The notes under the pieces are model-generated. The model did no database searches. It had not been told where the DNA came from and saw only the letters and a program-made list of their open reading frames with translations. 64,000 bases of DNA from Halocaridina rubra (lineage: Eukaryota > Arthropoda > Malacostraca > Decapoda > Atyidae): contig JAXCGZ010007567.1 of assembly GCA_037179515.1 (NCBI GenBank), positions 147,001-211,000 of the forward strand, given 5' to 3'. The first letter of the stretch is position 1; every line of letters starts with the position of its first letter. The translations under genes and the position numbers were made by a program. Below, piece after piece: positions 36,850 to 57,756 of this stretch.

Positions 36850-36855
36850 TTTATT
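36850..36855 (-). terminator. Candidate poly(A) signal for the five-gene locus
   Basis: The minus strand carries AATAAA about 210 nt after the YIPF3 stop. No AATAAA or ATTAAA is present on that strand in the spacers between NCBP2AS2-like, COX17, BANF1 and YIPF3, so this is the first canonical signal after the cluster. Confidence 0.5.
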
Positions 36856-37065
36856 GTACTCCTTATTTACAGTGTTTGTTACAAATTATCAAGATTTTAC
36901 TTCACTTTTGAAATATTAAAATTTTCATACAACTACCAAGGGTCTAGCCATGTTGACGCACAGTCCAACAGAATACATTACCAGGCTACTTGTGCTGCAC
37001 ATATTTTAATCTGAATTAATACTTATTTTATCAGACACCCATTTCTAGAAGGAATATTGTCAAAC

Positions 37066-37743
37066 TTAGACGTTGAGTGTTTTCCTCATGACTGCAAAAT
37101 GCAAGTATAATAAGTGCATTAGATGTATACAAGCTAGAGTAGAACACATAAGTAGTCTCTGTCCAGGACCTGGAGTATGCGCTAACATTATGAGAGTTAG
37201 CCTGCCAGTTGTGAGGCCTCCAAATACAGTCATTAAAAAGAAGAAAATGCCATGATTCTCTTCTTGGTGTAAAAGTTCAGTTATGACAAGTACAAGACAA
37301 TGTCCTGTTAAGCTGTAACCAGTTACAGAGAGAAACTGAGAAAAAGAGAGACTAGTCTGGCAAAAATATCCCAGGAAAAAGGCTAAAATGGAAAAGCCTA
37401 ACCAATAACCAAATGTCAGTTTTGCTGTAGTTGATATCTCTGCTAATGCTGTCTGTTCAGGGCTATGGAAGCCGTACAAAAGTATAGCTGCAAGGAAAGT
37501 TACTATAATGAAAGGTCCTTTCAGGTCTGAATAAACTCGCTGAAATTCAGGGAAGAAGAAAGGAGGAGCCATAGAAGAAACAATTCTACGAGGAATACGA
37601 CTATTTGATACAGAAAAATAGGGCCTGGCATACCTGACAATATTCAATAAGTTTTGGTATAATGAGGCCCGAGTATGTCTTAGAACTTCACCTGGGTAAA
37701 TGGACTCTATAGTCACAACCGAGTAATGTTTAGGCGACATCAT
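37066..37743 (-). CDS. YIPF3: YIPF3-like Golgi membrane protein
   Basis: A 225-residue Yip1-domain protein. A cytosolic lead (residues 1-75, with ARPYFSV and SMAPPFFFPEFQRVYSDL before the membrane part) is followed by five hydrophobic segments at about 77-93, 111-128, 137-156, 165-187 and 196-217. FGYWLG, GYSLTGHCLVL, FGGLTTGR and GPGQRLLMCSTLACIHLMHL are arranged as in YIPF3. Members sit in cis-Golgi membranes, YIPF3 in complex with YIPF4. Vertebrate YIPF3 has a longer acidic N-terminus and a longer C-tail, so this one is compact, or a 5' exon is missing. A T-rich acceptor-like site (tatgtacataag) lies 10 nt before the ATG. It is the last gene of the cluster, 151 nt after BANF1. Confidence 0.88.
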   Translation of the reverse strand: MMSPKHYSVVTIESIYPGEVLRHTRASLYQNLLNIVRYARPYFSVSNSRIPRRIVSSMAPPFFFPEFQRVYSDLKGPFIIVTFLAAILLYGFHSPEQTALAEISTTAKLTFGYWLGFSILAFFLGYFCQTSLSFSQFLSVTGYSLTGHCLVLVITELLHQEENHGIFFFLMTVFGGLTTGRLTLIMLAHTPGPGQRLLMCSTLACIHLMHLLYLHFAVMRKTLNV

Positions 37744-37894
37744 ATTACTGTCCTTATGTACATAAAAAATAAATTTACTTTAGATAAAAATACTGTATAT
37801 CCTGCAATTAATAGATCTTCAGCCCCTTCGTATTAATTCACCAACAGTTACAGTAATACCGTGAAACCCCCCAAATGAACACCTTTAGAACTTG

Positions 37895-38173
37895 TCACAA
37901 GAACTCACTGCACCAGTCGGCTAAACACTGGTAACATTCCGAGGCTTGATTTGAATTAGCTCCTACCAGGTCCTGCAACCATTCCACAAAGAGTTCTCGA
38001 TTTTTCTTAAGAACAAGAAACTGTCCAAGAACAACAAATGCCTTGTCAAATCCTCGATTCTCAAGCCGTCTCCCAAGAACTTCTCCAATGCCGGCCAACT
38101 CAGTTACAGGTTTTTCACCCATTGGTTCAGCAACAAATAAGGTATGCTTCTGGGATGTAGTTGTCATTGTCAT
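37895..38173 (-). CDS. BANF1: Barrier-to-autointegration factor (BAF)
   Basis: A 92-residue protein, the usual BAF size within 2-3 residues. It has [18 protein letters not shown], then the helix-hairpin-helix DNA-binding segment ([18 protein letters not shown], residues about 25-42), [20 protein letters not shown] and a Cys-containing C-terminus ending CSEFL. BAF is a dimeric DNA-bridging protein that binds LEM-domain proteins and lamin, and helps rebuild the nuclear envelope after mitosis. Two in-frame ATGs (MTM) open the frame. The second gives an N-terminus closer to the family. It is one uninterrupted exon, 73 nt downstream of COX17 with no acceptor-like tract in the spacer. The frame is intact and looks functional. 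Confidence 0.97.
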
Positions 38174-38246
38174 TCACAGTTACACAAAAAGCCCATTAAT
38201 AAATCATAATTTTCATTTACAAGCTTCATTTATAATGACAGTCACT

Positions 38247-38447
38247 TTAAATATTAAAACCCATTTCCCTCATACACTTTTTATGCGCTTCTATAAGTTC
38301 CTGGCAGTTTTCTTCACCTTTCTCCACAATACAAGCATCTCTCAACTGCTTTGTTTCAGGGCATGCACAGCATGCTTTACACTTGGGCTTTTTCTCAGCA
38401 TCTGAGGTCTTACTGCTGACTTCACTCCCTGCATTTACTTCAGGCAT
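38247..38447 (-). CDS. COX17: COX17 copper chaperone
   Basis: A 66-residue intact protein. The C-terminal half has C26-C27 followed by the twin CX9C helices C29/C39 and C48/C58 ([31 protein letters not shown]), the signature of Cox17. It is an intermembrane-space protein oxidised by Mia40 that hands Cu(I) to Sco1 and Cox11 for cytochrome c oxidase assembly. The N-terminal 22 residues are polar and variable, as usual. One exon. The spacer to the upstream NCBP2AS2-like gene is 91 nt and holds a strong polypyrimidine-AG site. No poly(A) signal lies between this gene and BANF1. Confidence 0.97.
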
Positions 38448-38500
38448 GATGAATTTTACAGAAAAAAGTAAATCTTAATGATAATTACCTTAAATACAAC

Positions 38501-38530
38501 ACTTACTGCTGTAAAAAAGGAGAAAGGAAA
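38501..38530 (-). promoter_or_regulatory. Strong 3' splice-site-like element between two ORFs
   Basis: Directly after the NCBP2AS2-like stop the minus strand has 'tttcctttctccttttttac' followed by AG. Two bases later comes GTAAGT, a consensus donor. A pyrimidine tract of this quality between two cistrons is what a trans-splice acceptor, a cis-intron acceptor or a recursive splice point would look like. Use in vivo is not shown. Confidence 0.5.
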
Positions 38531-38538
38531 CTCCAGAG

Positions 38539-38790
38539 TTACTGCTGCTTCTTCTGATTCCCTTGTTCTATTTCTTTGAATCCCTTCTGAACCTCATGTG
38601 TGAATCTTTCTGAGAAACGTGAAATGCGTTTCTTGGTTTCTGATTCTAAAGCTTCCTCTGCAGCAATTCTTCCCCTGTTCAATGCATAAGCTGTCAGCTG
38701 AGCAGCACGACGAATGGGATAGGACTCAGCAATTTTATCGATAACCTGCGGATTGTTTAGGATTTTGTTGAGGAGGTAACGCAGTACCAT
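38539..38790 (-). CDS. NCBP2AS2: NCBP2AS2-like small protein
   Basis: An 83-residue protein starting MVLRYLLNKILNNPQVIDKI, then SYPIRRAAQLTAYALNRGRI and an amphipathic, basic/acidic C-terminus ending in KKQQ. The 'PIRRAAQLTA-AL' block after an 'MVLR-LL--L---P-----' start fits the conserved small protein NCBP2AS2, whose human form is a small, reportedly mitochondrial protein of little-known function. Although the frame is open 11 codons further upstream, a good acceptor (acttttttattttag) ends at 38799 and the exon begins 8 nt before this ATG, so this start is preferred. An overlapping out-of-frame ATG sits at the exon start. It is followed by COX17 on the same strand. Confidence 0.82.
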   Translation of the reverse strand: MVLRYLLNKILNNPQVIDKIAESYPIRRAAQLTAYALNRGRIAAEEALESETKKRISRFSERFTHEVQKGFKEIEQGNQKKQQ

Positions 38791-38798
38791 GTCCACAT

Positions 38799-40435
38799 CT
38801 AAAATAAAAAAGTGAAACTTCACTTAAATACCAACTGGGACAACAATGGACTTTAAAAATTCAACCCTTAAACAATACCTGCCAAACACTATAATTAAAA
38901 ATATATTCTAGAGTAGAGAATAAAAAATGTATATCTGTAGAAAGCTAAATCAATAAAACGACAAACGAATTAATTAAACGTTCCTAATGTTGAAAACACA
39001 GAAAATGTGTTAAATTATACACTGCTGAAAATGTATTTATAAAATAAAGTTCAGAATATGTAACACTAAAACTAAGAAGTTTCATACACAGAACAATCTT
39101 AACAAGCCATGATGACAATTTACAACTGCCCTCAGTAACTTATTCAGAAAACTGAGAGTAGTATATGATAAACGTGATGTACTGTTATGACAGTGCATGC
39201 GGTTACTGGCTTACGAAAGAGGTAGATTTCAGCCAATGAGATGATAATCAAACTGATTTTGAAGTTTAAAAATATGAAGTACTGTACTTAGGGTCACAGC
39301 TCTGCTATATAATGTGTTGCACAGTAAACTATACAATGTACATAATGTAAAAACCAGAAACATATAAGTAATGTAAGTTTTCTTTATTTCTTTATCTTAT
39401 GACTACAGTGCTGTAAGTAAGTGCTATCCTAGTGAGGAGTAGAGTGCTCATCCTCCCATTTCATTCTCAATTTCTCGGTATTTTCTTCTCTTTCTCCTGG
39501 AATGAGGATTAATGTATAATACCTTCATAAGGCAACTAAATGGGGTAGAGCCGGAGGATCGTATCTACCCCTTCATATATTTCATCCATGAAGAGTCAAG
39601 GCATACTACACGTAAAAAAAATCAAGATAGAATTATAGCAGTTAGGTCTCTGAAAGTGCGTGATTGTGGAACAAGTGACAACAAAATGGAGCATTGTAGC
39701 AAGTTTGCTATTAGAAAAATGGATGCGTCAGCACTAATAGAAACAAAGAAGGGGAAGGGGAAGAATGTATTTTTTGGTGAATGGGTGTACTTTGACTTGG
39801 CAACCCCCACAAGGGATAATGTAACTTTTGTACTGTAGCTAGATAGATATCTTGATTGCCTTTCATAATATAAAAAGCAATTATAATTGCTTAAGAAAAT
39901 ATTCTTGGAAGTCTGGATATCGCAAGACGAAATGTTGTAATGCAAGGACTAATTATTGTACAACGAAAGGCAGTAGACATCAACTGTTTTAATATTTAGA
40001 CATCATTAGAAATACATTTCTGGGAGAGTAATTTCGACACAGAGAGACAACTAATATCAGTAGCTGAGAGAGAGAGGAATTATGTATGTGTTAAACATTC
40101 ACACAGAGTTTTAAAATATCTGGAGTGTTGGAGATCATAAAGAAAATATTTTAGATACTGTTAAATTGCTAAAATTCATGGCGATAAGGGTATTTAGTTT
40201 TCAATATCTTCTTGGACACAATTAACTAATTAAAAAAACGGATTGCAAGATAAATTATAAAATACAGTTATAGCAAAGCTTATTCATGCTTAAGCTATGG
40301 CCTTTAAGCACTATACACAGCTAAAACAGTCACATATTTATATCTAACAAGACAATTCCTATTAGTATATTAATCTACATTTCCATAGGTATTGCAACCC
40401 ATCAACATTGCAATGTTCAATGCAATATTACTTAC
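38799..40435 (-). other. Proposed intron joining MED9 exon 3 to the NCBP2AS2-like exon
   Basis: It runs from a GTAAGT donor touching the MED9 stop codon to a pyrimidine-rich acceptor just before the NCBP2AS2-like start. The DNA is AT-rich. On the other strand, 39512-39838 is open for 108 codons (start MYNTFIRQLNGVEPEDRIYP), with no recognised domain. It is not annotated as a gene because there is no homology or promoter evidence. Confidence 0.55.
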
Positions 40436-40438
40436 CTA

Positions 40439-40570
40439 CTAATGTTGAGTCTCACTTTTAGCTTTGTACTTGAATAACAATCGTTTCTTGAGCATCAACT
40501 GCTTTCGAAGAGCTTCTAGATGTTTCAGTTGTTCTTCCTTGCTGTATTCTACTCCAGGAAGTTTGCGAAC
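40439..40570 (-). CDS. MED9: Mediator subunit 9, exon 3 (C-terminal)
   Basis: After the acceptor 'ccctgtttaatag' the exon continues in phase 0: VRKLPGVEYSKEEQLKHLEA, then LRKQLMLKKRLLFKYKAKSE and a TAG stop. This is the conserved C-terminal coiled-coil region of MED9 (a 'lPGi--s-eeQ---L--LR-ql--K--Ll-KYK' pattern), which packs in the Mediator middle module with MED4. The stop is TAG TAG and is followed at once by GTAAGT, so exon 3 probably does not end the transcript but splices onward to the NCBP2AS2-like exon. The next exon upstream is 3.9 kb away, across satellite and Tigger sequence. Confidence 0.88.
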   Translation of the reverse strand, partial: VRKLPGVEYSKEEQLKHLEALRKQLMLKKRLLFKYKAKSETQH

Positions 40571-40589
40571 CTATTAAACAGGGATTGTA

Positions 40590-41400
40590 CATAATTACAC
40601 AATTATTAAAAGATTTTTATGCTGAGTGTCTTGATGGAGAAGTATAGATAATGCAAGGAGTTGCAGTGTGTATTTGTAGTTTTAGAGAGGGTATATGACA
40701 TGATGCAGAGAGAGGAGGTATGGTATTACATGAAGAAGTCCAGAGTGCTGAGAAATACGTGAGGGTGGTGCAGGATATATATGAGAACAGTGACAGCATT
40801 TTTGTATGCAGAAGGATTGAAGGACAGGTTCATAGTGGGGGTGGGATTACTTCAAGGATCAGGTCTGAGCATTTTCTTATTGCAATGGAAATGAACAGGT
40901 TGACAGACAAAGATCAGACAGAAGTCACCGTGGACTTTCAAGTTTGTGGATAATATTGTGATCTGAGCTAGAGGTGGGGATATGCATTAGAGTGAAATGG
41001 AATAAAAGTAAGAATAAGAATGACAGAGTATATGTGTGTGAATGAGAGGGAGGTTAGTGGAGTGATAAGGTTGCAAGGCAAAAAAGTGTTGAAGATGGAT
41101 GAGCTTAAACATATGGGGTCACCTGTTCAAAGTAATGGAGAGTGTGGTAGAGAGATGAAGAAGAGTGGAGGCACAATGGCGTGGGTGGATAAGAGGGACA
41201 GAAGAGATAGTTGACAAAAAGGTACCTATAAGAGTGAAAAGTAAAGTTCACAAGATGGTACTAGGATCAGCTATGTTGTATGGTTTAGAGATTGTCCTAC
41301 TAACAAAAAGACAATAGGTAATGCTGGAGTTGGCAAAGTTGATGATAGACTTTTGCTTGAATGTGACAAGGATGGACAGGTTAAAGAATTCGGGCCATGA
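40590..41400 (+). mobile_element. Degenerate RTE-like LINE fragment (family G)
   Basis: Broken frames give YVRVVQDIYENSDSIF, VGVGLLQGSGL and a degenerate 'W-f-F-DNIVI' where RT has its YADD/FADD box, then VLKMDELKHMGSPVQSNGEC. The order fits the palm and post-catalytic region of RTE-like elements, and the family is distinct from D. Many stops. It lies in MED9 intron 2, opposite in orientation to MED9. Confidence 0.7.
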
Positions 41401-42390
41401 AATAACATAGTGGCATTCAGATAGAATGCTTCATTCCTAAGTATAGTAGATATAAGCTATAAGGGTGGATTCCTTTTAACCTTCTGTGGTGTGTAGTTAG
41501 TAGCGCCTTGACTTAGTAATTATAAGTCCTAGGTTCGAGTCCCGGTCGGGGTAAATAATGATTCATGTTTTCACATGTGTAATGTGCTTATTTGGTTTTT
41601 TCATGGCCTGAATGAGACTGGGAATTGAATTAAACGCAAAAATTAAGCCACGAGTGAGGTTGGGGAATCTGTAATATGAACATAATGGCATTCAGATAGA
41701 ATGCGTTCATTCCTAAGTATAGAAGATATAAGCTATAAGGTTGGATTCCTTTTAACCTTCTGTGGCGTGTAGTTGGTAGCGCCTTGACTTAGTAATTATA
41801 AGTCCTAGGTTCGAGTCCCGGTCGGGGTAAAAAATGATTCATGTTTTCACATATGTAATGTGCTTATTTGGTTCTTTCATGGCCCGAATGAGATTGGGAA
41901 TTGAATTAAACGCAAAAATGAAGCCACGAGTGAGGTTGGGGAATCTGTAATATGAACATAGTGGCATTCAGATAGAATGCGTTCATTCCTAAGTATAGCA
42001 GATATAAGCTATTAGGTTGGATTCCTTTTAACCTTCTGTGGTGTGTAGTTGGTAGCGCCTTGACTTAGTAATTATAAGTCCTAGGTTCGAGTCCCGGTCG
42101 GGGTAAAAAATGATTAATGTTTTCACATATGTAATGTGCTTATATGGTTATTTCATGGCCCGAATGAAATTAGGAATTGAATTAAACGCGAAAATGAAGC
42201 CACGAGTGAGGTTGGGGAATCTGTAATATGAACATAGTGGCATTCAGATAGAATGCGTTCATTCCTAAGTATAGCAGATATAAGCTATAAGGTTGGATTC
42301 CTTTTAACCTTCTGTGGAGTGTAGTTGGTAGCGCCTTGACTTAGTAATTATAAATCCTAGGTTCGAGTCCCAGTCGGGGTAAAAAAAAGA

Positions 42391-42392
<2 letters not shown>
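41393..42392 (+). repeat. Tandem array of 276-bp units, each with a tRNA-like module (about 3.6 units)
   Basis: The B-box-like word GGTTCGAGTCC starts at 41532, 41808, 42084 and 42360, a constant 276-bp spacing. Each unit has an A-box-like 'gtagttggtagcgcc', a 6-bp anticodon-like stem (gactta/taagtc) and 'cccggtcggggta', then 'gattcatgttttcacatatg'. The 5' flank does not pair with the 3' 'tcgggg' acceptor arm, so these are tRNA-derived modules and not tRNA genes. Related units lie at 57811-57960 and 62641-63205, on the other strand. The array ends in a (TA)n run. Confidence 0.9.

Positions 42393-42393
<1 letters not shown>

Positions 42394-42482
<89 letters not shown>
42394..42482. repeat. 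(TA)n microsatellite
   Basis: About 44 TA units between the 276-bp satellite and Tigger derivative T5. Confidence 0.97.
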
Positions 42483-44471
<1,989 letters not shown>

Positions 44472-44568
44472 CTGTTCCCTTGCAATCTGGATCTTGCGTT
44501 GAAGTTCAAGAACTTTCTGACTCGATTCCTGGGATACGCGAGACAGATCTGTCTGCTCCTTTTCAAGG
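44472..44568 (-). CDS. MED9: Mediator subunit 9, exon 2
   Basis: A 97-nt exon between the acceptor 'gttttatcctttag' and the donor CAG|GTAAAA. It completes a Cys codon split from exon 1 and reads LEKEQTDLSRVSQESSQKVL then ELQRKIQIAREQ, running in phase into VRKLPGV of exon 3. The stretch fits the helix that precedes the conserved 'lPG' of MED9. Phase and length agree with both neighbouring exons. Confidence 0.85.
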
Positions 44569-44571
44569 CTA

Positions 44572-44929
44572 AAGGATAAAACAAATTATAAGTGATATTA
44601 TAATGATAATTTATCAAAATACTGTATACAAATACAAAACCATTATCATTAGTGTTTCATATATATGCCACACATTTGTAATACACATTAAGTCATAAAA
44701 ATATGTATGTGCAGTAGAGGCCTAAAAATCCACATGACATGATGGTTCATTTTATTAATTAAACTGCTTTTCTTTTTCATCACCAGACCCATCAATATAA
44801 AAATGCTTCAAAGTAAATAGTCATTTTTCATGGTTGAAAGTACTGTACATCAAGATTATATTAATGAATTTACATTAACCTGAAGATATATGCTATACAT
44901 TTAGTTAGATTGGATTGTTAAAAGGATGT
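44572..44929. other. MED9 intron 1, no feature seen
   Basis: AT-rich sequence, no element recognised. Confidence 0.5.
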
Positions 44930-46743: not shown

Positions 46744-46823
46744 CAGTGGTTCCCAATCTGTGGTCCGCGGACCCCTGGTGGTCCGCAAAGGTAGTACTGG
46801 GGGTCCGTGAACTGAATTGAAAT

Positions 46824-46958
<135 letters not shown>

Positions 46959-47455
46959 TGAATAAGCATATTAAAAGAAAAAAATAATAATGCACTTATA
47001 CAAAGGCAACGTAACGTACCCATGCTCTCATAATTATGGCAATATTAAAAATAAATGTTTCCTGATTATATAATTTATTTATTTTCCTTTTCTTTCTCTC
47101 TTTAGTTTTTTATGCATTTAACACTGTACATGAAAGTGACATGTCGGATGTCAGGCAATCACAGTACGGTAGGACCGAAGCATTTATACGAGTGAGATTA
47201 CCAACCTGTCATGTGTTGAACATGTACAGTTGGACCGTGGCGTGCGAGCTCAGTCTGAGCTGAAGTTCTGAACACTGATTGCTGCAACTTCCCTCTTCCT
47301 TCACCGTCTTCACGTTTTGAACCGACAGTTGCATCCAAACGTTAATGCAACTTGAGCAGTCCATAGTCAGTGCGTCTGTGTTTGATTCCCGAACCTAAAT
47401 ATTTAGTTGTATTAACTACATCAGTGACTATTAATTGTAAATATCTGATCGGAAG

Positions 47456-48595
47456 ATGAATCGGTGGTTAAAAACCGGAAGCATGTTAAAACGAGACAGT
47501 AGTGACATAGAAGGTGAATGTGCGACAAGCTCAAGTGAAAAGACACCGACTCATCAGTCGAAACGCAAAAACCGTAAATACTGTGATGAATACATATCCT
47601 TTGGATTTACATGTAGAGGCAGTGAAGGTGAACAGAATCCACAATGTGTTCTCTGTAATGAAATATTGTCCAATGAAAGCATGAAGCCAGCCAAACTTCG
47701 CCGGCATTTTGAAACTAAGCATAAGGAGCATACTAACAAACCTGTTGAATATTTTCAAAGAAGACGGGAAGAACTGCTTTCAAGACAAAATATTATAGAA
47801 AAAATAGCAACCGGGGGTGATAATAAGAATGCTGTGTGTGCTTTGTATGATGTTTCTCTTTTAATAGCAAAGAGTGGAAAACCACACACAATAGCAGAGG
47901 AACTAATTCTGCCTGCTGCCAAAGCAATGGCCTCTAGGATGCATGGAGATAAAGTATCAAAGAGTTTTGATCTCATTTCATTGTCAAACACCACTGTCAA
48001 GCAGCAAATAGAAGACATGTCTGACAGTGTTAAAAATCAACTAGTGAAGAGAGTGATTAAAAGTCCATATTATTCTTTACAATTAGATGAAAGTACAGAT
48101 GTTGCTAACAGTGCTGATTTACTTGCATTCATACGATATGAATTTGACGGTACAATTAAGGAAGATTTTCTCTTTTGCCAGTCATTGCCAACACACACAA
48201 CTGGTGAGTCTATTTTTAATAGTTTGAATGATTTTACAATAGCTAATGAAATTGGAAAGTCAAAGTGCGTAGGAGTCAGTACTGATGGGGCTCCAGCAAT
48301 GTCAGGAAAGTACAAAGGACTCAAGGCAAAAATCCAAGCTATAATACCGAATGTCAAGTGGACTCATTGCTGCATACATAGAGAATCGTTGGCAGCAAAG
48401 AAAATGCCAGAAAAATTGAAGACGACTCTAGATGAAGTAGTGAAAATAGTTAACTTTATAAAAGCTCAGCCCTTAAATTCTCGTATTTTTAGTGTTCTTT
48501 GTGAGGAGATGGGTAGCGCTCATGAACAACTGCTCTTGCATTCTCAAGTGCGGTGGCTGTCCCGCGGTAAAGTATTTACCCGCATATTTGAGTTA
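47456..48595 (+). pseudogene. hAT transposase (ZBED-like), N-terminal part, broken by a LINE
   Basis: The frame starts MNRWLKTGSMLKRDSSDIEG. A BED-type zinc finger follows (C64, C67, H84, H89, in CVLC...HFETKH). The RNase-H-like core has the first catalytic Asp in LQLDESTDVA (residue 210) and the second in GVSTDGAPAMSGK (residue 276), then THCCIHRESLAAKKM and LLLHSQVRWLSRGKVF. The pattern resembles the transposase group that gave rise to vertebrate ZBED5/SCAND3-type domesticated genes. The frame is intact until the CR1-like LINE cuts it after RIFEL. The remainder lies at 51864-52610. Confidence 0.92.
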
Positions 48596-48760
48596 AGAAC
48601 ATAAGAACATAAGAATAGAGGACACTGCAACATGCTTACTGGCACACACGAGGCAGCTCCATTTTGAATTGTATTTTCAGCATGTCTAACCTATTCTATT
48701 CTACTCTACTTATTTATTCTATTTTTCTTTTTATGATTTTTCTAATAAGCACTAACCTAT

Positions 48761-51354
48761 TCATACCCACCCTACCTCTGTCATATGTCTATCTAATCTA
48801 CATTTGAAGGTGTCTAAGGTATTGGCATTTACTATCATACTAGGAAGCTTGTTCCATGCATCAGCTACTCTATTACCAAACCAATTTTTACCAATTTCCC
48901 TTCTGAACCTAAATTTATCAAGCTTAAATCTATTATTACGAGTTCTGGTTTGATCATGAATCTTTGAAACTTTATTAATATCTCCCTTGTTAATCCCTTT
49001 AAACCATTTATACACTTCAATCATATCCCCCCTAACTCTTCGCCTCTCTAGAGAATGTAGATTAAGTTTTTTAATCTGTCCTCATATGGTAGATTTCTGA
49101 TATTGTGTATCATCTTGGTCATTCTTCGCTGCACTCTCTCCAAGGATTCAATTTCCAATCTATAATAGGGTGACCAGAATTGCACAGCATAATCTAAATG
49201 GGGCCTAACTAATGCAAGATAGAGCTGCAAAATAACTTTTTCCGTCCTATTGCTAAAGCTTCTTGAGATAAATCCTAGAATTCTGTTTGCTTTATTTCTG
49301 ACTGCTGTGCATTGCTCTCTTGGCTTAAGACTACTACCCACAAGAACTCCCAAATCCCTTTCACAATGAGAACTCATGATTTCATGGTTATTTAGCTTAT
49401 AACTAGTATTGTCTTTTATAGTACCCATTTTAACTACTTTACATTTTTCAACATTAAATTCCATTTGCCATTTGTCCGACCATACAGATAATCTATTTAG
49501 ATCTTCCTGTAAAGCATGAATGTCTTCTTTTCCATTTATAGTTCTACCTATTTCAGTGTCGTCTGCGAATTTACTTAGGTTACTACTGATATCCGAATCC
49601 AGATAATTTAGATATACGATGAATAATAGGGGACCCAGTACCGAGCCTTGTGGTACCCCGCTAGTAACCGAGCCCCACTCTGATTTCTCTCCATTTATGC
49701 AAACCCTCTGTTTTCTGTCTTTTAACCATTGTTTGATCCATCTGAGCACAGCTCCTCCTATACCATGAGCTTCCAGCTTTTTAACTAATCTTTTGTGAGG
49801 AACTCTATCAAAGCTTTGCTAAAATCTAGATATATTGTATCATATTCTTTGCCACAATCTACTGCCTCGTAAACTTCTGAATAAAAAGACAGTAAGTTTG
49901 TAAGGCACGAAAAACCCTTAAGAAACCTGTGTTGTGAAAGTTTTATCAGTCTGTGTAATTCTAGATGTGCCCTTATTTTATTTGCAATTATGGATTCTAG
50001 AATCTTACCCTGCTATTCTAACTTCGTATTTTCTTTTCGACTCTATCTTTTTAACTTCCCTGTTTAACTGTATATATTGCTGCCTCACCTGCTCTTCACC
50101 TCTTTTTAGTTTCCTGTATATTCCTCTTTTAATACCTATAAGATTCTTTATTCTATTGTTCATCCAATTAGGGTAATTTTTTCTTGATCTGCAATGTTTC
50201 ATGGGAATATAGTCTCTCTGACTATTCTTAAGTCATGACAAAATTGTTATATTCCTCATCCAAATTTATATTAACTGACGGACTGCTGTTCTTTCCTGTG
50301 AGAGAATTTAATGTATTGATCTTATCTTGTGATAATCCTTGGCATGTGGTACTCAAATTTTGGGGTAATCCGCTACCTGCGACCTGACCTGCTGGATTAA
50401 CTACCCACATCTGTACCCCAGAAATCCCTTCCCATACCTCATTAGATAATTCAGTTTTTAAGCCCTCAAAATCTCCTGCTCTAAAGTTTGGAACAATATT
50501 CTTATTTTCCTTTATAGTTTCCTTGAAAATTATGTTAAATCTAATGGAATCATGGTCACTGTTGCCCAATTTTTCACCAACTTCTAAATTTGTAACCATA
50601 TTCTCTCTATTACTAAGAACTAAATCTAGTGTATTCACCCCCCGTGTTGCTTCAAGTACATGCTGAGAAAGGAAATTGTCTTCTACTACTTCCGAAAACT
50701 CCTTAGAGCTACTATCACCTGTTATGGTTTCCCAGTTAATATGTCTAAAATTAAAATTGCCTACAATGCAAACTCTATTTGACCTGGTCACTTTAGAAAT
50801 TCATCGTATATAACTTGCGACTCTATATCGTCTAGATCAGGTGGTCTGTAGACTACTCCTACAACTAGACTTTCTATATTATTTTTAATTTCAACCCATA
50901 AGGTTTCTGAATTTAGATTTGTCTTAATTCCAGACTTAATGCAGCTTCTGAGGCTATCTTTAATATACATAATTACCCCTCCCCCTCTTCTATCTGCACT
51001 ACGATCAGCATTATAAAGTTTATATCCTGTAATTATGTACTCAGCTTTAAGGTGTTTGCTTTCTAAATTAATTCAACTTTCACTAATGCATATTATATCC
51101 GGTCTCTCACTACATACTATGGCTCTCAGTTCTTCTATCTTGTTACCTAAACTACGGCTATTTGTATAATAATATATTTTTAAACTTTCTCTAGCTTTAC
51201 CCTTCTTGTGGCTATTCTTTTTGTTAATATTTGTTCTATGTAACAAATGGTTCTTATCCTTGGACTCCCAGTTATTTGACCCACTATTTACTGAATCCTT
51301 GATGACTAATTTCTCTGCACAAGTATTATTCATTTCATTATTTGTGTCTAACAA
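48761..51354 (-). pseudogene. CR1-like ORF2: endonuclease and reverse transcriptase, broken
   Basis: Endonuclease pieces: IYYYTNSRSLGNKIEELRAI and RPDIICISES (51354-51073), VVGVVYRPPDLDD (50970-50788), then VGNFNFRHINWETI, where the usual GDFN has Asn for Asp, and GNSDHDSIRF (50791-50228). A linker segment ends at 50005. After an internal gap the RT resumes with an FDRVPHKRLVKKL-type motif (about 49790), SGVPQGSVLGPLLFIVYLNY, SKFADDTEIG (catalytic box, about 49570) and LALVRPHLDYAVQFWSPYYR. The C-terminal domain KNWFGNRVADAWNKLP ends at 48761. Several frameshifts. Active copies nick DNA and copy their own RNA at the nick. Confidence 0.88.
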
Positions 51355-51833
51355 AACCCCCCTACCTCTCTGTCTATCATACCAGCCAATATAGAGACAC
51401 CTGAAGTAGAAAGATGCACTCCATCCCTTGCATACATATGCTTACGACTAGTGAAGTGATCCCACCCGTCTATAAAACCTATATTATTCTCCTGACAGAA
51501 GACTTTCATCCTAGCATTTACTCCTATAGCTCGAGACCACCACTCTGAACTTTGGCTAAGCCTAGGGAGAATACCACACATCACAGGAACTGCACCCCTT
51601 TTCCTGATCTTATCCAGGGCTTGTCTATACAACCTAATCAGCTCTTCACTTCTACCATCCTGCACGTCATTTCCCCCAGCTATCAAACAAACAACATCTT
51701 TTTTCTCAATCCAGCTATTTATTGACTCACCCACCTTCTTCATACCTGCTCCAGGGAAAAAATATTTTCCTCTAACTCTATGCCTGAGTTTCCTGTCTAC
51801 ATATCTGCATAGTGAATCCCCTACATTTACCAA
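51348..51833 (-). pseudogene. CR1-like ORF1 fragment: SGNH-type esterase domain
   Basis: A 161-residue open segment with the three conserved blocks of GDSL/SGNH hydrolases: VNVGDSLCR (nucleophile Ser block), LIAGGNDVQDG (the Gly-x-Asn-Asp block) and ARDGVHLSTSG (Asp-x-x-His block). Esterase domains of this kind are known in ORF1 proteins of CR1-group retrotransposons, where their role in transposition is unclear. All catalytic blocks look intact. The frame is open for about ten more codons to the left (SHPPDKSRSL), and the N-terminal part of ORF1 is missing because the copy is 5'-truncated. Its stop lies just past the start of the ORF2 frame. Confidence 0.85.
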
Positions 51834-51863
51834 AGAACGAGACTTATCTGGAGGATGGGATAC

Positions 51864-52610
51864 TTGCGTGATGAAATAAGACTATTTCTTCATGATAAAT
51901 CATTTCATGGGAGAGAATGGTTTAATAACTCTTCGTGGCTAGCTATTGTGGCATACATGTCTGACATCTTTACTTATTTGAATGACCTAAATTTGAGCCT
52001 ACAAGGGAGATCCGTAACTATTTTTAAAGTTGAAGATAAAGAGGAAGCCATGATCAAGAAATTAGAATTGTGGTCTGAACGTCTGCATAGTGGTGTGTTT
52101 GAATCCTTTCCAACACTTTATGACTTTCTTGGAACTTCTGAAGAAAACATTTCTGAAGAAATAAGAAGCCTTTTTATTCAGCATTTGCAAGGTTTAAAGA
52201 TCAGTTTTAGGGATTATTTTCCTCCTCATGATGGTAATAACAAGTGGATTAGGGATCCTTTTCATGTAAATGTAAAAGATGTAAAAGAATTAACAGCAAA
52301 AGAAGAAAATAGTCTTGTTGAACTTTCATGTGACACTTCACTAAGATCACTTTTCAGCCGTTACAATTTATCAGACTTTTGGTTACTATTGAAAAATGAG
52401 TACCCAGAACTGGCAACCAAGGCCCTGAAATATCTAATGCCATTCCCTACTACGTATTTATGCGAGCAGGCTTTCTCACAGCTCATTTACATAAAATCAA
52501 AATACAGAAATAGGAGGAATGTGGAACCTGATCTTCGCTTAAAACTGTCTGCCACTGAACCTGAAATTGAAAACATAGTAGCAGCAAAACAACATCATCC
52601 ATCTCATTAA
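51864..52610 (+). pseudogene. hAT transposase, C-terminal part
   Basis: Resumes RDEIRLFLHDKSFHGREWFN directly after the LINE. It contains the remaining RNase-H/insertion region (WLAIVAYMSDIFTYLNDLN, FRDYFPPHDGNNKWIRDPF) and the hAT dimerisation domain at the C-terminus (YPELATKALKYLMPFPTTYL, EQAFSQLIYIKSKYRNRR). The frame is open to TAA at 52608. With 47456-48595 it would make about 630 residues, a normal length for the group. Apart from the LINE, no other break is visible, so the element was probably intact when hit. Confidence 0.92.
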
Positions 52611-52863
52611 TGAGATTAAAATAGAGTATTTTTTTTCTGCTCTGTTATGTATTTCTTTCTTTATATTTTTTATATATTTTCCCATTTTTTCATTTACATA
52701 TGTCTTTCTGCAGAAATGAATCTAGTTTTCTGATAAGAGGAGTTTGTTGCTAGTTTATTAAAGCAGCATGTTAAGTTGACAGACATTTCAATATCCTGGG
52801 GTCCGGGGAAAAAATCATTTAAATAAAAGGGGTCCTTGGTAGTGAAAATTTTGGGAACCACTG

Positions 52864-54190
52864 CATTAGACCATGATATACTAATAGAAAAACTAACTTG
52901 TGTGGGTATTAGGGGAACACCATTACAGTTATTTAAGAGCTACTTGAAAAATAGAAAATAAGCCATATATTGTAATGGGAAAGCATCTTTGTTGCAAACT
53001 ATTGAGAGGGGATTACCACAGGGATCAATACTGGGCCCATCGTTATTTTTAGTTTATATAAATGATATTTCCAATGCCAGTAATAAATTCAAATACTGTA
53101 TATTCTTTATGCAGATGACACCTACCTTCTCTTGCATGATAATAACCTTGACCACCTGCATTTTGTTTTAAATAGTGAACTAGAAAAAATTAACAACTGG
53201 GTCTCTGTTAATAAATTAAAGCTAAATGTTTCCAGAACTGACTATATCTTATTTCAAAATAGATCTGTAGTACACAATATTGGTCAAGTTAATATGAATG
53301 GGTATGAAGTTAAAAGAGGTGCTTGTAAGAAATTTCTGGGAGTAATTATTGATGAAAATTTAAGTTGGAAATATCATATTCAATGTCTGCTCAAAACTGT
53401 CCAAGACGTGTGGAATTTTGTATAAAATTCGCCATAACCTAACAAATGAGGCCTTAAAAAGCATATACTATTCTCTGTGTTATGCTCATATTATATACTT
53501 TTGGCCATCTGGGGTTGTACTTGGCCGTCAATTGTAAGGGATGTATTTATAACTCAGAAAAGACTGATCAGAACTATTACATATAGTGGAAAATATGACT
53601 CAACTTCCTCTTTATTCAAGGAGCTAAACTTGCTTAAATATAATTACTTGATACAATATTTCTGTCTTATTATTATACATAGTGATGTTAATGATAACAG
53701 AAAATTATTTAGATTTATTCAACACAACCATGGAACCAGAGGTAACAATATAAATTTGATATGTCCACAGCCGAGAACAACCTTGTACAAATATTCTATT
53801 CACTGTTTTGGCCCAAAATGTTGGAATGCATTACCAGAAGATTTAAAAACAATAACTGGCACAACTTTATTTAAAAAGAAACTCAAACAGCATTTATTTA
53901 CTAGGCAAAATCAAGCAGCTGTTGATTAATAATTAATACAGTATTGGTGTATCATTATGTCCAGGTTAAGGTCAGGCTACTGTTTTGTTTTATTACAAGA
54001 TAAGTATGAGATTGCTCTATTGGAGCTTTTGTTAACTATTGCCATCATACTTTAATTTATGTGAAATGTATATTAAACTGCCTGCCAAGGAGCTCTTGCT
54101 CAGCAGGCTAGTGCCTCTGAATATAATGTACATATTTATTCCTGTATGTATACTAAATATTTGGCAATAAAATCTATGACAATGACTATG
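52864..54190 (+). mobile_element. LINE family C, right part
   Basis: Continues DHDILIEKLTCVGIRGTPL, then IERGLPQGSILGPSLFLVYI, a frameshift just before the catalytic box LYADDTYLLLHDNNLDH (about 53108), INNWVSVNKLKLNVSRTDYI, KFLGVIIDENLSWKYHI and the C-terminal domain (FGPKCWNALPEDLKTITGTT) to 53929. The 3' end has 'ggcaataaaatctatgacaa' and a short 'tgac'-rich tail. Frameshifts and a TAA after the hAT site show it is dead. Confidence 0.87.
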
Positions 54191-56541
54191 ACAGCCGCAA
54201 ATGGTTCACCCCTACCGCTTCATCACATGTCAACTCCCTCACACCCGTCCATCACAGTTCAATGAGTCAGCAGGTGCAAGAAATCCTTTTGGCCCGTGTC
54301 ACCTATATACAATCTTCTTCCACTCATGTCTATCTCTTCCTTGCTCCACTGACATTCCACATGCATTCAGTGCCCTTTTCACGCCATCCATCCAAGGTCT
54401 TCCTCTTGACCTAACTCCAATCACTTCTGAACACTCTCTCTTCACTATTCGTTCATCACTCCTTTCCATGCGTCCAATCCAAGTCAACACTTTCTGATCT
54501 AATTTATCCGACATATTCCTTTCAACATCCATTCTGCCTGACATCCTCATTTTTACTCTATTTATTCTAGATACACCAATCATACTTCTCAAACACCTCA
54601 TCTCCATTACATTCAATTTGTTCCATTCAACCTCTCTTGAATTCCAAGTCTCTGCTCCAAACAATGCTGTTGTCACAATCACACCTTCATATATCTTTCT
54701 CTTTGCATTCATTCCCAAATATCTATTTCTCATTACACTTTTCAATCCACTTAGACATTTACTTGCTTCTTTCACTCTATGACTTACCTCTGTATCCACT
54801 CGCCCACTCCTTGATGCATGCGACCCCAGATACTTAAAACTCTCAACTTCTTCAAGCAACTCCCCACTCACTCCTACATTCAATCTGTAAACATTAACAC
54901 TCTTCGTGCATCTCGAGACTTTACTTTTACCAATATTCACTCGCAATTTCCTTCTTTCACACACCCTAACAAACTCAGTAAACACATGATTCAGTTCATT
55001 CTCAGAATCACCCTCCAGTACAGTATCATCTGCAAATAGCAACTGATTCAATTTCCACAACCTTCCATTCTTAACCACTAGTTCCAACCTCTGTCTCATA
55101 TTCTTTCATTTATTTCCCTTATCACTCCATCCATATACACATTAAACAACCATGGACATATTACACAACCTTGAAGTAGCTCTACATGCACCGCTCCACA
55201 ACTCCTCTCAATCAACCCTGTCATACACTTTCGCTAAGTCCATAAAAGCCAAAAAAGTCTCCCTACCTTTCTCCATGAACTTCTTACAAACCTGTCTTAC
55301 CATAAACACCTGATCCGCACATCCTCTTCCTCTTCTGAACCCACACTGTTCTTCCCCAATCAATCTCTCAGAGCCTTTCCTAATTCTATCTCTCAGAGCC
55401 TTTCCTAATTCTCTCGATTAACACTCTTCCATATCTCTCACCAACTACACTCAACAAACTAATTCCCCTAAAACAACGACACTCATATTTATCTCCCTTT
55501 CCTTTATAAAGTGGAACTACACATGCACTCCTCCAATTAACAGGGGCCCTCCCTTTTCAGATTATACATTCAAGAACCTAACCATCCATTCTACTGATGC
55601 CTCCCTACCATTTGACAAGCATTCAGCATGACATCCATCTATCCCAGGTGCTTTACCTGGTTTCGTTGCTCTCAATGCCAAACGTACCTCCTCTTTGGTT
55701 ATATATCTATCCTAGCATTGGCATTCTCCATTCGTTTTCCACAGCCACAATCTCTGCCTTTCCATCATCTTCCTTATTCAGCAGGTTCTTGAAATATTCA
55801 GCCCATCTCTCTCTCACCTTTATTTCATCCACTAGCAATTGTCCATCTGCTCCTTTCACCCTCTTCTCCCTACCACATTCACCTTTCCTCACTTTTTTCA
55901 CTTTCTCCCAAAACATCTTTTTATTCCTTTCAAAATTCACAGACAAGCATCTGCCCCACCTTCCATCTGCCTCTCTCTTTGCCTCCCTCACCACGTGCTT
56001 TGCTAATCTCCTCTTTGCACAATACCTTTCATACGTCTCTATATTACCTACCTGCAACCATACCTCATAAGCCCACTTTTCAGCCACTACTGCACTCACC
56101 TGCTCATTCCACCATTCACTACCTTCCTTTTACTTCCACCAGTTAGTCTACTTCCGCACACTGCCTCGGCAAACTTCATAACTTCCTCCTTGAAACAGCC
56201 CCATTCTTCTTCCACTCCCTCCTCAACTTTCTCTTCCACTACATTCCACATATTTCTCACAATATCCTAATACTCACAGTCTCTCTCTTTCTTATACAAT
56301 TCATTCACTTTTAGCACCTCTCTTCTTCTCTCGCTTCGCCTCTTTCTCCACTTTTCTCCCACTCTTACTCTACCTTCCACTAAATAATGATCAGATATTC
56401 CACCACTAGCTCCTCACAGGACATTCACATCCAATACTCTTCCAGTCACCCTCCTGTTCACCACAACATAAGCCATTAATGCTCTGTCAACTACTCTTTT
56501 AACGAATCTAGCCTCTAAAACGTCATAAACTACTGGTTTTT
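54191..56541 (-). mobile_element. RTE-like LINE copy D2 (5' truncated in the endonuclease)
   Basis: From 56541 the frame gives the end of an APE endonuclease (ISDHYLVEGRVRVGEKWRKR). A linker frame follows (55707-56099: KMFWEKVKKVRKGECGREKR, VRERWAEYFKNLLNKEDDGK). A broken RT region is next, then an open segment 54299-55099 with the catalytic LLFADDTVLEGDSENELNHV, RRKLRVNIGKSKVSRCTKS, LNVMEMRCLRSMIGVSRINR and SRGRPWMDGVKRALNACGM. It is related to D1 and D3 but a separate subfamily. It starts directly after the LINE C tail, in MED9 intron 1. Confidence 0.88.
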
Positions 56542-57679
56542 AGGTTACATTATATTTGGATAAAGTAGGTGAAGGGGTAGTTCACAATTTTGCGGGCCAA
56601 GCCGCTCAACGACCTCACCCCTCCGCTCAGGTAAGGAGTTCGACCCTAACCTGTATGATGGGGGGGTTCCAGAGGGGTCGAAGCCCCCTGGCTAAGAGGT
56701 TAGGTAGGTATTTTTAGTTAGGATAGTAAAAAATTGTTTCGTATGTCTATTGTCGCCATTTTTGTTCTGCATTCATCCGCCAGTTCTCTAGTTAGAGCCT
56801 AGCGCCATCTATTGGTAGGTTTTGAACATTGGTATGGCCCGCAAAACTGTAGGTGTCCCAGGTGAAGTGTTAATAGGTTAGGTAAAGTTAATAATTCCCG
56901 ACAGTTTAAAAGGTCATAATAATGCAAAACATCAAAGGCCAAAGGATAAATGCGACGGATGGAACCATACAAATTACCCATTTTCCCTCATGGTCTTTGA
57001 TTAACATGTCGACTAGCAGGTTCTAGCAAACATTTACCAACATTATTTTTTACTCAAAGGTACGTGCTAAAATAACATACCTTCAACTCACTCTCATAAC
57101 CTGAAAAATAACATTTCAAATACTACCACACGGTAGCCGGGTATAGATAGGACCTGCTACGGTAGAAAAATATGATGATAATGTTCCGACAACACTCTTA
57201 ATCCAGGATTATTATTATGTTTTGCCCTTACCCATGTGGATAATGCAATCTATAAATATCACGTGTTGCAATATTACGGCGAGAATTGTAATAATTACCA
57301 ATTCTGTAACTCCCCCCGTGGCCTGTACGAACGAAGAACTTGCGTAACAGAGAATCCGACCGGCGGCCGTCATTTGAATATTTACCTTGGCCAGGCAAGA
57401 AATAAAGCATAAACAAAAAAAAATACTAACTCACGCATGCAACAGGCATACTTCAGTACTCAAAGCAGGACCTCGAGACCATCCATACCTGTGGGCCAAT
57501 CATATTCCGCTATTAAAAATATGCATGCATGCTCTTCCAAGTCCGCATAGTTTGGCACTCGAACACAAATCGAATTTCCTATTTTTTTTTACTAAACACC
57601 AAAACATTTCGGCAACATGAGTCATCGTTTGCATATACCTGGAGTTACTATATACGTTAAGGAGCAATATTAATCTTAC
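56542..57679. other. 5' part of MED9 intron 1, unique-looking DNA
   Basis: Less AT-rich than its surroundings, with 'gttaggtaggta' words and no recognised transposon. Frames at 56799-56981, 57228-57416 and 57500-57838 on the minus strand show no domain. As it lies just downstream of MED9 exon 1, it may hold regulatory sequence. See the CTCF-like site. Confidence 0.45.
56802..56815 (-). promoter_or_regulatory. CTCF-like motif
   Basis: The minus strand reads CCAATAGATGGCGC, which fits the core CTCF consensus CCASYAGRKGGCRS at 13 of 14 positions. It lies in MED9 intron 1, about 0.9 kb from exon 1. One match in 64 kb may be chance. Occupancy is unknown. Confidence 0.3.
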
Positions 57680-57756
57680 CAGCGCAAATATTGATAAATA
57701 ATTGGTAAAAAATCTACATCGATGTCCTCGGCAGCAACTACTTGGGATGACATCAT
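57680..57756 (-). CDS. MED9: Mediator subunit 9, exon 1 (start)
   Basis: The frame opens MMSSQVVAAEDIDVDFLPII then YQYLR, with an in-frame TAA five codons before the first ATG, so the start is fixed. It ends CGC TG|GTAAGA, leaving two bases that combine with the first base of exon 2 to give Cys. The joined text FLPIIYQYLRC-LEKEQTD fits the conserved N-terminal 'FLPli--iik/rc--kd' block of MED9. The three exons give a protein of 101 residues, short but complete. Mediator subunit 9 links regulators to RNA polymerase II through the middle module. Intron 1 is 13 kb and mostly transposon. Confidence 0.88.

Follow-up and report, generated by a model that had tools for sequence, protein, structure and literature searches.

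A candidate five-cistron mRNA, MED9 to YIPF3, in the decapod Halocaridina rubra

Five genes whose products we take to act in unrelated places follow one another on the minus strand of a 64,000-nt stretch of DNA from the Hawaiian shrimp Halocaridina rubra (contig JAXCGZ010007567.1; hereafter the window): MED9 in Mediator, NCBP2AS2 as a small conserved protein, COX17 in copper delivery to cytochrome oxidase, BANF1 at the nuclear envelope, and YIPF3 in the Golgi. Are they expressed from one RNA, and if so, how would ribosomes reach the later cistrons? A preliminary description of this locus proposed that the unit is transcribed as one RNA and is either translated polycistronically or resolved by trans-splicing. 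Our analysis favors one promoter that probably gives rise to a single spliced polycistronic mRNA of all five genes, which would be unusual in an animal.

Results

The gene models, spacings, and splice-site scores given here are observations on the sequence itself. All five frames are present in the window in the order MED9, NCBP2AS2, COX17, BANF1, YIPF3, as first described, and the spacers of 91, 73, and 151 nt claimed for the last four genes match exactly. The MED9 coding sequence is split over three exons (57756-57680, 44568-44472, and 40570-40436). Exon 1 (57680..57756) ends at the donor TG/GTAAGA, and the ortholog start is its second ATG, at 57753. Exon 2, of 97 nt (44472..44568), lies between the acceptor CCTTTAG/C and the donor CAG/GTAAAA, the latter scoring only 3.3. 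Exon 3 (40436..40570), whose acceptor scores only 0.5, ends in TAG TAG; translation stops at the first TAG (40441-40439), and the second is the final exonic triplet. The 101-aa model is identical to the deposited Halocaridina rubra protein SK128_010187 (match P0036). Our searches returned this protein but neither an NCBP2AS2 nor a YIPF3 from Halocaridina.

The four downstream genes are all intronless. The NCBP2AS2 ORF (38539..38790, 83 aa) had no match in a Pfam search and takes its name from homologs named NCBP2AS2 in Haliotis, Lineus, and Spea. COX17 (38247..38447, 66 aa) matches Pfam COX17 at 2.9e-21. BANF1 (BAF; 37895..38173, 92 aa) matches SAM_BAF at 7.8e-42 and, among solved structures, a top BAF chain at 6.1e-40; the start matching that of solved BAFs is probably its second ATG, at 38167. 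YIPF3 (37066..37743, 225 aa), whose ortholog start is also probably the second ATG (37740), reaches 28.4 bits against Pfam Yip1, slightly below the cut-off of 28.6, and is 60-64% identical to proteins named YIPF3 in Penaeus, Cherax, Homarus, and Procambarus and 47% in Petrolisthes. The frames are intact, and the conservation of MED9, NCBP2AS2, and YIPF3 suggests that these products are made, without indicating from which RNA.

The case first made for a common RNA drew on poly(A) signals. Neither AATAAA nor ATTAAA occurs in the three spacers (315 nt), and the first canonical signals downstream of 38798 do come after YIPF3 (36850..37010, minus strand; ATTAAA from 37010, AATAAA from 36855). However, only 0.77 signals are expected in the spacers, and zero arises in 47% of simulations (P = 0.47). 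Their absence is therefore uninformative alone, and this argument carries no weight; the one-RNA proposal is supported instead by a predicted intron and by contigs of equal size in relatives.

The spacers differ in their splice acceptors. The 91-nt NCBP2AS2-COX17 spacer (38448..38538) has no ATG, folds more stably than 198 of its 200 shuffled versions (z -2.9), and contains the acceptor TTTCCTTTCTCCTTTTTTACAG/CAG (exon start 38508; score 8.9, rank 2 of 4103 AG sites). The 73-nt COX17-BANF1 spacer (38174..38246) holds a single TATA-like string, at 38234, and just two AGs, with none in its last 50 nt. Neither it nor the 151-nt BANF1-YIPF3 spacer (37744..37894) contains an acceptor scoring at least 5. 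Each of these two spacers also carries a short ORF, of 19 codons with a UGA overlapping the first BANF1 ATG and of 7 codons with a UGA overlapping the YIPF3 start. Both are within chance, random BANF1 and YIPF3 spacers placing a stop at most 12 nt from the start in 29% and 47% of trials, respectively.

This distribution bears directly on trans-splicing. In nematode operons, spliced-leader trans-splicing turns a polycistronic pre-mRNA into capped mRNAs of one cistron each; a similar route here would suit the short spacers, the shared strand, and the strong acceptor upstream of COX17, and spliced leaders are reported in the malacostracan Parhyale in a passage of PMC5111886. Such operons have an acceptor near each downstream cistron, and here the pattern fails at BANF1, given the two AGs of its spacer; YIPF3 also has no upstream acceptor scoring at least 5, but weak ones could serve, as the 0.5 site of MED9 exon 3 does. 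For amphipods and copepods, operons and polycistronic mRNAs were as yet unreported according to the relevant section of PMC7986045, and contigs in relatives that apparently span NCBP2AS2 to YIPF3, if RNA, are unlike resolved mRNAs. We consider this route extremely unlikely. Of the two fates first proposed for the RNA, polycistronic translation may occur, whereas trans-splicing is poorly supported because of the COX17-BANF1 spacer.

The strongest evidence, overlooked in the preliminary description, is a pair of splice sites, one just after the MED9 stop and one just ahead of the NCBP2AS2 start. Based on splice-site scores, they bound a predicted intron 3 of 1637 nt (38799..40435, minus strand). 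Its donor, TAG/GTAAGT, lies immediately 3′ of the MED9 stop and scores 6.5 (rank 18 of 3150 GT sites); the chance of so good a donor 0-6 nt from a stop is about 0.2%. The acceptor before 38798, 8 nt upstream of the NCBP2AS2 ATG, scores 4.9 (rank 63 of 4103 AG sites), with a chance of about 1.2% for one so good within 12 nt of an ATG. A rival acceptor before 38907, 117 nt upstream of the NCBP2AS2 start, scores higher (6.0, rank 23 of 4103). A scan of 40600-36900 found no second donor scoring at least 5. If spliced, the 1.65-kb gap between MED9 and NCBP2AS2 would shrink to 11 nt from stop to start, or to 120 nt with acceptor 38907.

The same gap contains ATTAAA at 39993 and AATAAA at 39388, both inside the predicted intron, and these could be the ends of a MED9-only RNA. 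Together with two initiator-like TCAGT[CT] motifs and three TATA-like ones in the gap, they would suit two overlapping units: a MED9-only mRNA ending in the 1.6-kb gap, and a tetracistronic mRNA, perhaps with a noncoding first exon, from a gap promoter, with the five-gene RNA as minor read-through. Polycistronic fly loci often also make monocistronic RNAs, according to part of PMC4528330. Nonetheless, a first exon in the gap would be poorly served, since no donor scoring at least 5 lies there except at the gap's own start; a MED9-only mRNA would have no obvious use for that donor, right behind the MED9 stop; and joined-exon MED9 and NCBP2AS2 occur on equal-size contigs in a relative. We regard two units as decidedly unlikely. 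Weak donors can serve, as MED9 exon 2 uses one scoring 3.3, which tempers the argument from gap donors.

The splice sites around the MED9 stop and NCBP2AS2 start also speak against a cluster that shares no RNA, made up either of closely packed genes transcribed independently or of relocated intronless copies. That all four downstream genes are intronless would fit such a cluster, as would the TATA-like string between COX17 and BANF1, and the contig evidence from relatives may be partly genomic. But spacers of 73-151 nt offer scant space for both a terminator and a promoter, NCBP2AS2 and YIPF3 remain near each other in relatives, the frames are intact, and three of the products (NCBP2AS2, MED9, and YIPF3) are conserved. 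Independent transcription is thus very unlikely.

Three of the genes, MED9, NCBP2AS2, and YIPF3, were searched for in relatives, and a common contig was inferred from identical nucleotide sizes. A comparison of 26 x 26 short contigs gave 10 rows in which NCBP2AS2 and YIPF3 matches shared a size, where 0.26 were expected; in simulation, 10 was reached in 0 of 5000 trials and the maximum was 5. One further equal-size pair occurs at 19785. The short contigs matched in this way range from 1756 to 3025 nt, around the predicted 2.3 kb. For ten pairs, the distances of the two proteins agree (Mantel r 0.69, 0 of 10000 permutations), and the equal-size pairs fall in groups with Halocaridina rubra, Penaeus, krill, and probable crabs. 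One of the 11 rows (P0020-P0090) must be coincidence, since it sets a krill-type protein against a probable crab clade. No equal-size partner exists for 16 of the 26 short NCBP2AS2 contigs and 17 of the 26 short YIPF3 contigs, and the contigs pairing NCBP2AS2 with YIPF3 may themselves be genomic.

A MED9 match in which exons 1-3 are joined (P0045) and an NCBP2AS2 match (P0008) both lie on 1276-nt contigs, both from JGI sources. Another MED9 match, in which exons 2-3 are joined (P0053), and a YIPF3 match (P0086) both lie on 2798-nt contigs, the single short MED9-YIPF3 match (0.11 expected; 538 of 5000 trials reach one). Because P0053 is nearest Petrolisthes and Panulirus (94.1% each), its clade gives no confirmation of this pairing. 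Two of the four crustacean-like spliced MED9 matches on short contigs are partnerless (P0044, 2115; P0048, 2590). At exon borders, matches such as P0054, P0056, P0059, P0060, and P0061 continue into non-MED9 residues, and they look genomic; the 2896 match of P0060 with P0004 therefore indicates proximity only.

MED9 and YIPF3 lie on equal-size contigs in all five genera with NCBI proteins for both (Procambarus, Petrolisthes, Penaeus, Oratosquilla, and Homarus), three of these contigs being whole chromosomes. In Petrolisthes, NCBP2AS2 (P0013) was found on a different contig from the other two. Overall, the equal-size contigs suggest several cistrons on one molecule in relatives, where a common RNA is supported indirectly.

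A deposited 150-aa NCBP2AS2-like protein of Homarus (P0057) joins MED9 exons 1-2 to NCBP2AS2, with exon 3 absent, which favors a common RNA, and a Panulirus MED9 isoform (P0049) has a different N-terminus. With the acceptor at 38508, these two proteins would accord with one pre-mRNA whose cistrons come mostly from separate cis-spliced isoforms, each bringing its ORF nearer the 5′ end, as when MED9 exons are joined to 38508 and NCBP2AS2 is skipped. However, BANF1 and YIPF3 would not be separable in this way, since their spacers have no acceptor scoring at least 5, unless sites as weak as that of MED9 exon 3 serve, and joining MED9 exon 2 to 38798 in the window would be out of frame with NCBP2AS2. 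Such isoforms, which overlap with our preferred explanation of one spliced polycistronic mRNA, are unlikely as the main source of the five proteins.

Discussion

Under the preferred explanation, a single transcription unit would begin at a promoter upstream of MED9 exon 1 and yield a pre-mRNA of about 21 kb. Three introns would be removed, the last of them separating MED9's stop from the NCBP2AS2 start, and polyadenylation downstream of YIPF3 would leave a mature five-cistron mRNA of ~2.3 kb with stop-to-start distances of 11 (or 120, by acceptor), 91, 73, and 151 nt. The four downstream cistrons would share one terminal exon, with the MED9 stop 3 nt upstream of the last exon junction; therefore, no stop would have a decay-marking junction far downstream. 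What we infer here is the promoter, the export of the entire RNA, and all translation steps.

Ribosomes reinitiating after MED9 would reach NCBP2AS2, later cistrons would be served by reinitiating or newly loaded ribosomes, and shorter isoforms may assist, for example one that, by using the very strong site at 38508, would make COX17 the second cistron. Plain leaky scanning is a poor fit here: it relies on few upstream AUGs, and counting from the MED9 AUG, 5, 8, 20, and 26 AUGs lie ahead of NCBP2AS2, COX17, BANF1, and YIPF3. Coupled termination-reinitiation, as outlined in part of PMC5972666, uses overlapping stop/restart codons (UAAUG, AUGA) or an AUG a few nucleotides before the stop; here, all four main-ORF starts lie 3′ of the preceding stops. 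The same source, in that part, has reinitiation in mammals usually permitted by ORFs of <30 codons, and the cistrons here, at 66-101 codons, are longer. A search of 36800-58100 for described IRES families found none: the three matches with E up to 1 all scored below their gathering scores, and none of them is an IRES.

A bolder claim, that a five-cistron mRNA of unrelated housekeeping functions was fixed before the decapod/krill split and is still translated without trans-splicing, we advance tentatively, as conceivable rather than probable. If true, it would be a deeply conserved animal operon without spliced leaders, in which intronless ORFs had gathered behind MED9 in an arrangement that keeps exon junctions from lying far past any stop and so avoids decay. 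A five-cistron mRNA that is real and translated would offer a natural test of how animal ribosomes gain access to third, fourth, and fifth cistrons, and of whether fixed co-expression benefits unrelated housekeeping proteins. Annotation pipelines that assign one CDS per transcript would miss such genes.

Compact multi-gene units had been called unusual in arthropods, a claim softened by FlyBase, for which the consulted portion of PMC4528330 lists 159 dicistronic loci and a further nine with three or four cistrons; five cistrons, if real and translated, would exceed that catalogue's maximum of four. Drosophila polycistronic mRNAs are the nearest known kind. As in the loci that portion describes, one proposed processed mRNA would carry several CDSs for small proteins and no spliced leader, and the distances of 91, 73, and 151 nt, and of 11 or 120 nt once the predicted intron is removed, fall within the -34 to 319 nt given for exclusively polycistronic fly loci. 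Unlike them, the locus has five cistrons, unrelated protein roles, an intron separating the first cistron's stop from the start of the second, and signs of conservation in decapods and krill. The sloth1/sloth2 bicistronic transcript, in the account excerpted from PMC9681215, similarly has small ORFs (5 nt apart there, 11 nt here with 38798) and a good start context at the downstream ORF, but its products are proposed paralogs made by leaky scanning, whereas here the proteins bear no relation to one another, and the intervening AUGs are too numerous for scanning alone to serve the later cistrons. Green algal bicistronic mRNAs, as presented in part of PMC11291117, share a nuclear origin, a short first ORF, and short inter-ORF gaps; there, in mRNAs of two ORFs, a smaller number of upstream AUGs permits leaky scanning, whereas 20 AUGs precede BANF1. 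Finally, nematode and tunicate spliced-leader operons (PMC7986045, in part) likewise have short spacers and a pre-mRNA shared by several genes; the locus differs from them in having no good acceptor before BANF1 and in the apparent multi-cistron contigs of its relatives.

Gene order and the predicted intron behind the MED9 stop

The preliminary description placed MED9, NCBP2AS2, COX17, BANF1 and YIPF3 in this order, all on the minus strand, and the reading frames, Pfam matches and homologs bear this out. MED9 consists of three coding exons spread over 17.3 kb of the minus strand, and 101 residues of its spliced model are 100% identical to a deposited Halocaridina rubra protein, SK128_010187 (P0036 among our protein-search matches), which assigns the window to this atyid shrimp or a near relative of it. 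The other four genes lack introns and lie within 1725 nt (38790-37066, minus strand). Pfam matches were obtained for Med9, COX17 and SAM_BAF, with Yip1 slightly below the cut-off; BANF1 also matches solved BAF chains, and the identities of NCBP2AS2 and YIPF3 are taken from named homologs. MED9 exon 2 ranked fifth in an unconstrained exon scan and was confirmed by P0036; the top candidates of a phase-constrained scan were wrong, the true exon being fixed by that same protein. Among the matches for the three products searched, a deposited Halocaridina protein appeared for MED9 only and was absent for NCBP2AS2 and YIPF3, as expected if annotation permits one CDS per transcript.

The spacers between the last four genes measure 91, 73 and 151 nt and contain no AATAAA or ATTAAA, as first described. 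This absence had been offered as evidence for a single RNA, an argument that we have dropped: under a first-order Markov model of the spacers, 0.77 signals are expected and zero occur in 47% of draws, and the chance of zero over the 1733-nt coding unit is 0.15. Canonical signals occur in the gap between MED9 and NCBP2AS2 (39993 and 39388) and downstream of YIPF3 (37010 and 36855).

The MED9 stop codon, TAG, is followed by a second TAG and then by a GTAAGT donor that ranks 18th of 3150 GT sites on the minus strand of the window; its score of 6.5, like all splice scores here, comes from generic metazoan weights, which lack species-specific training. The predicted intron (40435-38799) would end at an acceptor 8 nt before the NCBP2AS2 ATG (first exon base 38798; score 4.9, 63rd of 4103 AG sites) or at a rival acceptor 109 nt farther upstream (before 38907; score 6.0, 23rd). 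From site densities over the window, the chance of so good a donor 0-6 nt from a stop is ∼0.2%, and finding an acceptor that equals or exceeds the score at 38798 no more than 12 nt from an ATG has a chance of ∼1.2%. The proven MED9 introns, confirmed by P0036, have donors of 5.5 and 3.3 and acceptors of 3.1 and 0.5. Thus, the predicted sites are at least equal to the proven ones.

If this intron is spliced, the MED9 stop and the NCBP2AS2 start would lie 11 nt apart (120 nt via 38907); counted from the MED9 ATG to 36820, the RNA would measure 2288 nt with the acceptor at 38798. Four intronless cistrons would then share the terminal exon, and the sole junction behind any stop would fall 3 nt past that of MED9. 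By the mammalian rule of 50-55 nt, such a junction would not trigger decay, which suggests that a five-cistron RNA would escape junction-triggered decay; the decay rules of insects are not the same. The second-best acceptor of the strand (first exon base 38508) sits in the NCBP2AS2-COX17 spacer (38448-38538, minus strand), on the 5′ arm of a hairpin; of 200 shuffles, 198 fold less well. This acceptor hints at an isoform with COX17 directly after MED9, and it may be regulated.

MED9 intron 1 also holds two plus-strand ORFs, one without a Pfam match (47456-48604) and one with a weak hAT dimerisation match (51855-52610; 0.0003, slightly below the cut-off). By eye, the two appear to be parts of a single hAT-type element, interrupted by minus-strand ORFs that resemble reverse transcriptase (48761-51743). 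A minus-strand reverse transcriptase fragment lies at 54299-55099 in the same intron (RVT_1, 1.5e-05, below the cut-off). Open IYIYIY frames at 43783-44166 and 46826-47023 (minus strand) are spurious products of long TA-dinucleotide runs.

Apparent contig sharing in related species

Protein searches with NCBP2AS2, MED9 and YIPF3 returned 35, 26 and 34 proteins, many on assembled contigs whose source, lgn, we take to be Logan SRA contigs. As a fingerprint we used the size of the longest contig in each protein's cluster, reading equal sizes as a shared contig; the comparison covers these three proteins and omits P0046 because no size is given for its contig. Equal sizes occurred in 10 rows between 26 short NCBP2AS2 and 26 short YIPF3 contigs (under 6000 nt), compared with a mean of 0.26 and a maximum of 5 when sizes were jittered by up to 300 nt in 5000 trials. 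One further pair was found at 19785, and 16 of the 26 short NCBP2AS2 contigs and 17 of the 26 YIPF3 contigs had no partner. One row, P0020-P0090, is discordant: P0020 equals P0025 over their overlap, the partner of P0025 (P0079) groups with krill, and P0090 falls in a probable crab clade. P0012 also equals P0090 in size and, because of this krill-type link of P0020, was the one used in the Mantel test. Removing the discordant row leaves nine short pairs and the long pair, and across these ten the NCBP2AS2 and YIPF3 distance matrices are correlated (Mantel r 0.69, with 0 of 10000 permutations as high).

A YIPF3 tree of 34 rows places the linked contigs, named here by size, among several groups. 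Contig 2384 adjoins Penaeus, 3025 and 19785 group with Halocaridina, and 2747 groups with the krill Meganyctiphanes; 2493 and 2681 stand beside Homarus, Cherax and Procambarus, their exact place not settled by the tree. Contigs 2307, 1994, 2741 and 2798 (the MED9 match) belong to a clade with no named member whose sister is the Petrolisthes clade, and which we take to be crabs, and 1756 lies in a clade near krill and Oratosquilla. In NCBI records, MED9 and YIPF3 occupy equal-length contigs in all five genera in which both were found. By size these are whole chromosomes, and weak evidence, in Procambarus (38.9 Mb), Penaeus (35.7 Mb) and Oratosquilla (89 Mb), with shorter shared contigs in Petrolisthes (203 kb) and Homarus (787 kb). 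The Petrolisthes locus tags, Pmani_007860 and Pmani_007863, leave room for two genes between. Its NCBP2AS2 (P0013, Pmani_027629) is on a separate 279-kb contig, which argues against the five-gene cluster being universal; this could reflect a copied gene, a relocation or a break in the assembly. IMG/VR, scanned for BANF1, for YIPF3 and with an NCBP2AS2 alignment, yielded no related locus, and neither did genome contigs scanned with BANF1 and the NCBP2AS2 alignment. Two MED9 matches close to the protein of the stink bug Halyomorpha halys, P0051 and P0052, come from 17 and 43 contigs with maximum lengths of 2379 and 2510 nt, much more than 119 codons require. The unit might predate crustaceans; alternatively, these contigs might contain a long 3′ UTR or genomic DNA.

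Short contigs may be genomic, and MED9 is informative on this point because introns separate its exons. P0045 has MED9 exons 1-3 joined and equals the NCBP2AS2 match P0008 in length (1276); P0053 has exons 2-3 joined and equals the YIPF3 match P0086 (2798). Two other joined-exon matches, P0044 (2115) and P0048 (2590), have no partner. P0054, P0056, P0059, P0060 and P0061 continue into non-MED9 residues where an exon ends and thus resemble genomic DNA, so that the match of P0060 with the NCBP2AS2 protein P0004 at 2896 shows proximity only. Two short MED9-NCBP2AS2 matches were observed against 0.11 expected (31 of 5000 trials reach two), and one MED9-YIPF3 match, a number reached in 538 of 5000 trials. 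P0053 is 94.1% identical to Petrolisthes, 94.1% to Panulirus and 92.6% to Portunus; being closest to the first two, its group fails to confirm the pairing with P0086. The evidence that the linked contigs derive from RNA is suggestive, not decisive. A deposited Homarus protein, P0057, fuses MED9 exons 1-2 to NCBP2AS2 and could be either a genuine isoform or an annotation forced into one CDS.

Possible translation of the later cistrons

Counted from the MED9 AUG, 5, 8, 20 and 26 AUGs precede the starts of NCBP2AS2, COX17, BANF1 and YIPF3, which makes it unlikely that plain leaky scanning gets as far as the later cistrons. The NCBP2AS2 start has G at both −3 and +4; A occupies −3 at the COX17 and YIPF3 starts and at the second ATG of each of MED9 and BANF1. 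In coupled termination-reinitiation, as described in the accessible part of PMC5972666, stop and restart codons overlap or the restart precedes the stop. Neither arrangement occurs in any main-ORF pair of the unit; the predicted 11-nt step from the MED9 stop to NCBP2AS2 would be close to this geometry. The same portion states that reinitiation in mammals is usually permitted after cistrons under 30 codons (PMC5972666), a length that the unit's cistrons exceed. Spacer ORFs with stops overlapping the BANF1 and YIPF3 starts were discarded as a reinitiation signal, since a stop falls 12 nt or less from the start in 29% and 47% of random spacers; the COX17 start has no overlapping spacer ORF (43% in random spacers).

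A structured IRES was likewise rejected. Among four folded stretches, the NCBP2AS2-COX17 spacer has a z of −2.9 (equalled by 2 of 200 shuffles), the other three giving −1.9 (COX17-BANF1, 5 of 200), +1.1 (BANF1-YIPF3) and +1.2 (start of exon 4), and a scan of the locus found no Rfam IRES. Our chosen reading is a polycistronic mRNA that uses reinitiation together with alternative 3′ splice sites, and we give its translation part about even chances.

Comparison with known systems

Among the open-access matches listed, none describes this cluster or any polycistronic nuclear mRNA of a decapod. In the open-access literature, no paper names at least three of the five genes together, as searched, and none combines MED9, dicistronic and Drosophila. 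The long-read papers on Scylla and Litopenaeus mention "polycistronic" solely in the reference list. The accessible part of PMC2276209 deals with uORFs of flies and is unrelated to the cluster.

Resolution by trans-splicing, which the preliminary description had proposed as one of two alternatives, fails the SL-operon acceptor test at BANF1, and in this respect the unit is unlike SL operons. The unit is of the same kind as the polycistronic loci of flies, to judge from the accessible text of PMC4528330, which counts 159 dicistronic loci and nine with three or four cistrons. The predicted 11-nt step from MED9 to NCBP2AS2 is comparable to the 5-nt gap between fly sloth1 and sloth2, which are read by leaky scanning according to the available portion of PMC9681215. 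The five-gene unit differs from the fly loci in its five cistrons, in its predicted stop-adjacent intron, and in the indications that it is conserved among decapods and krill.
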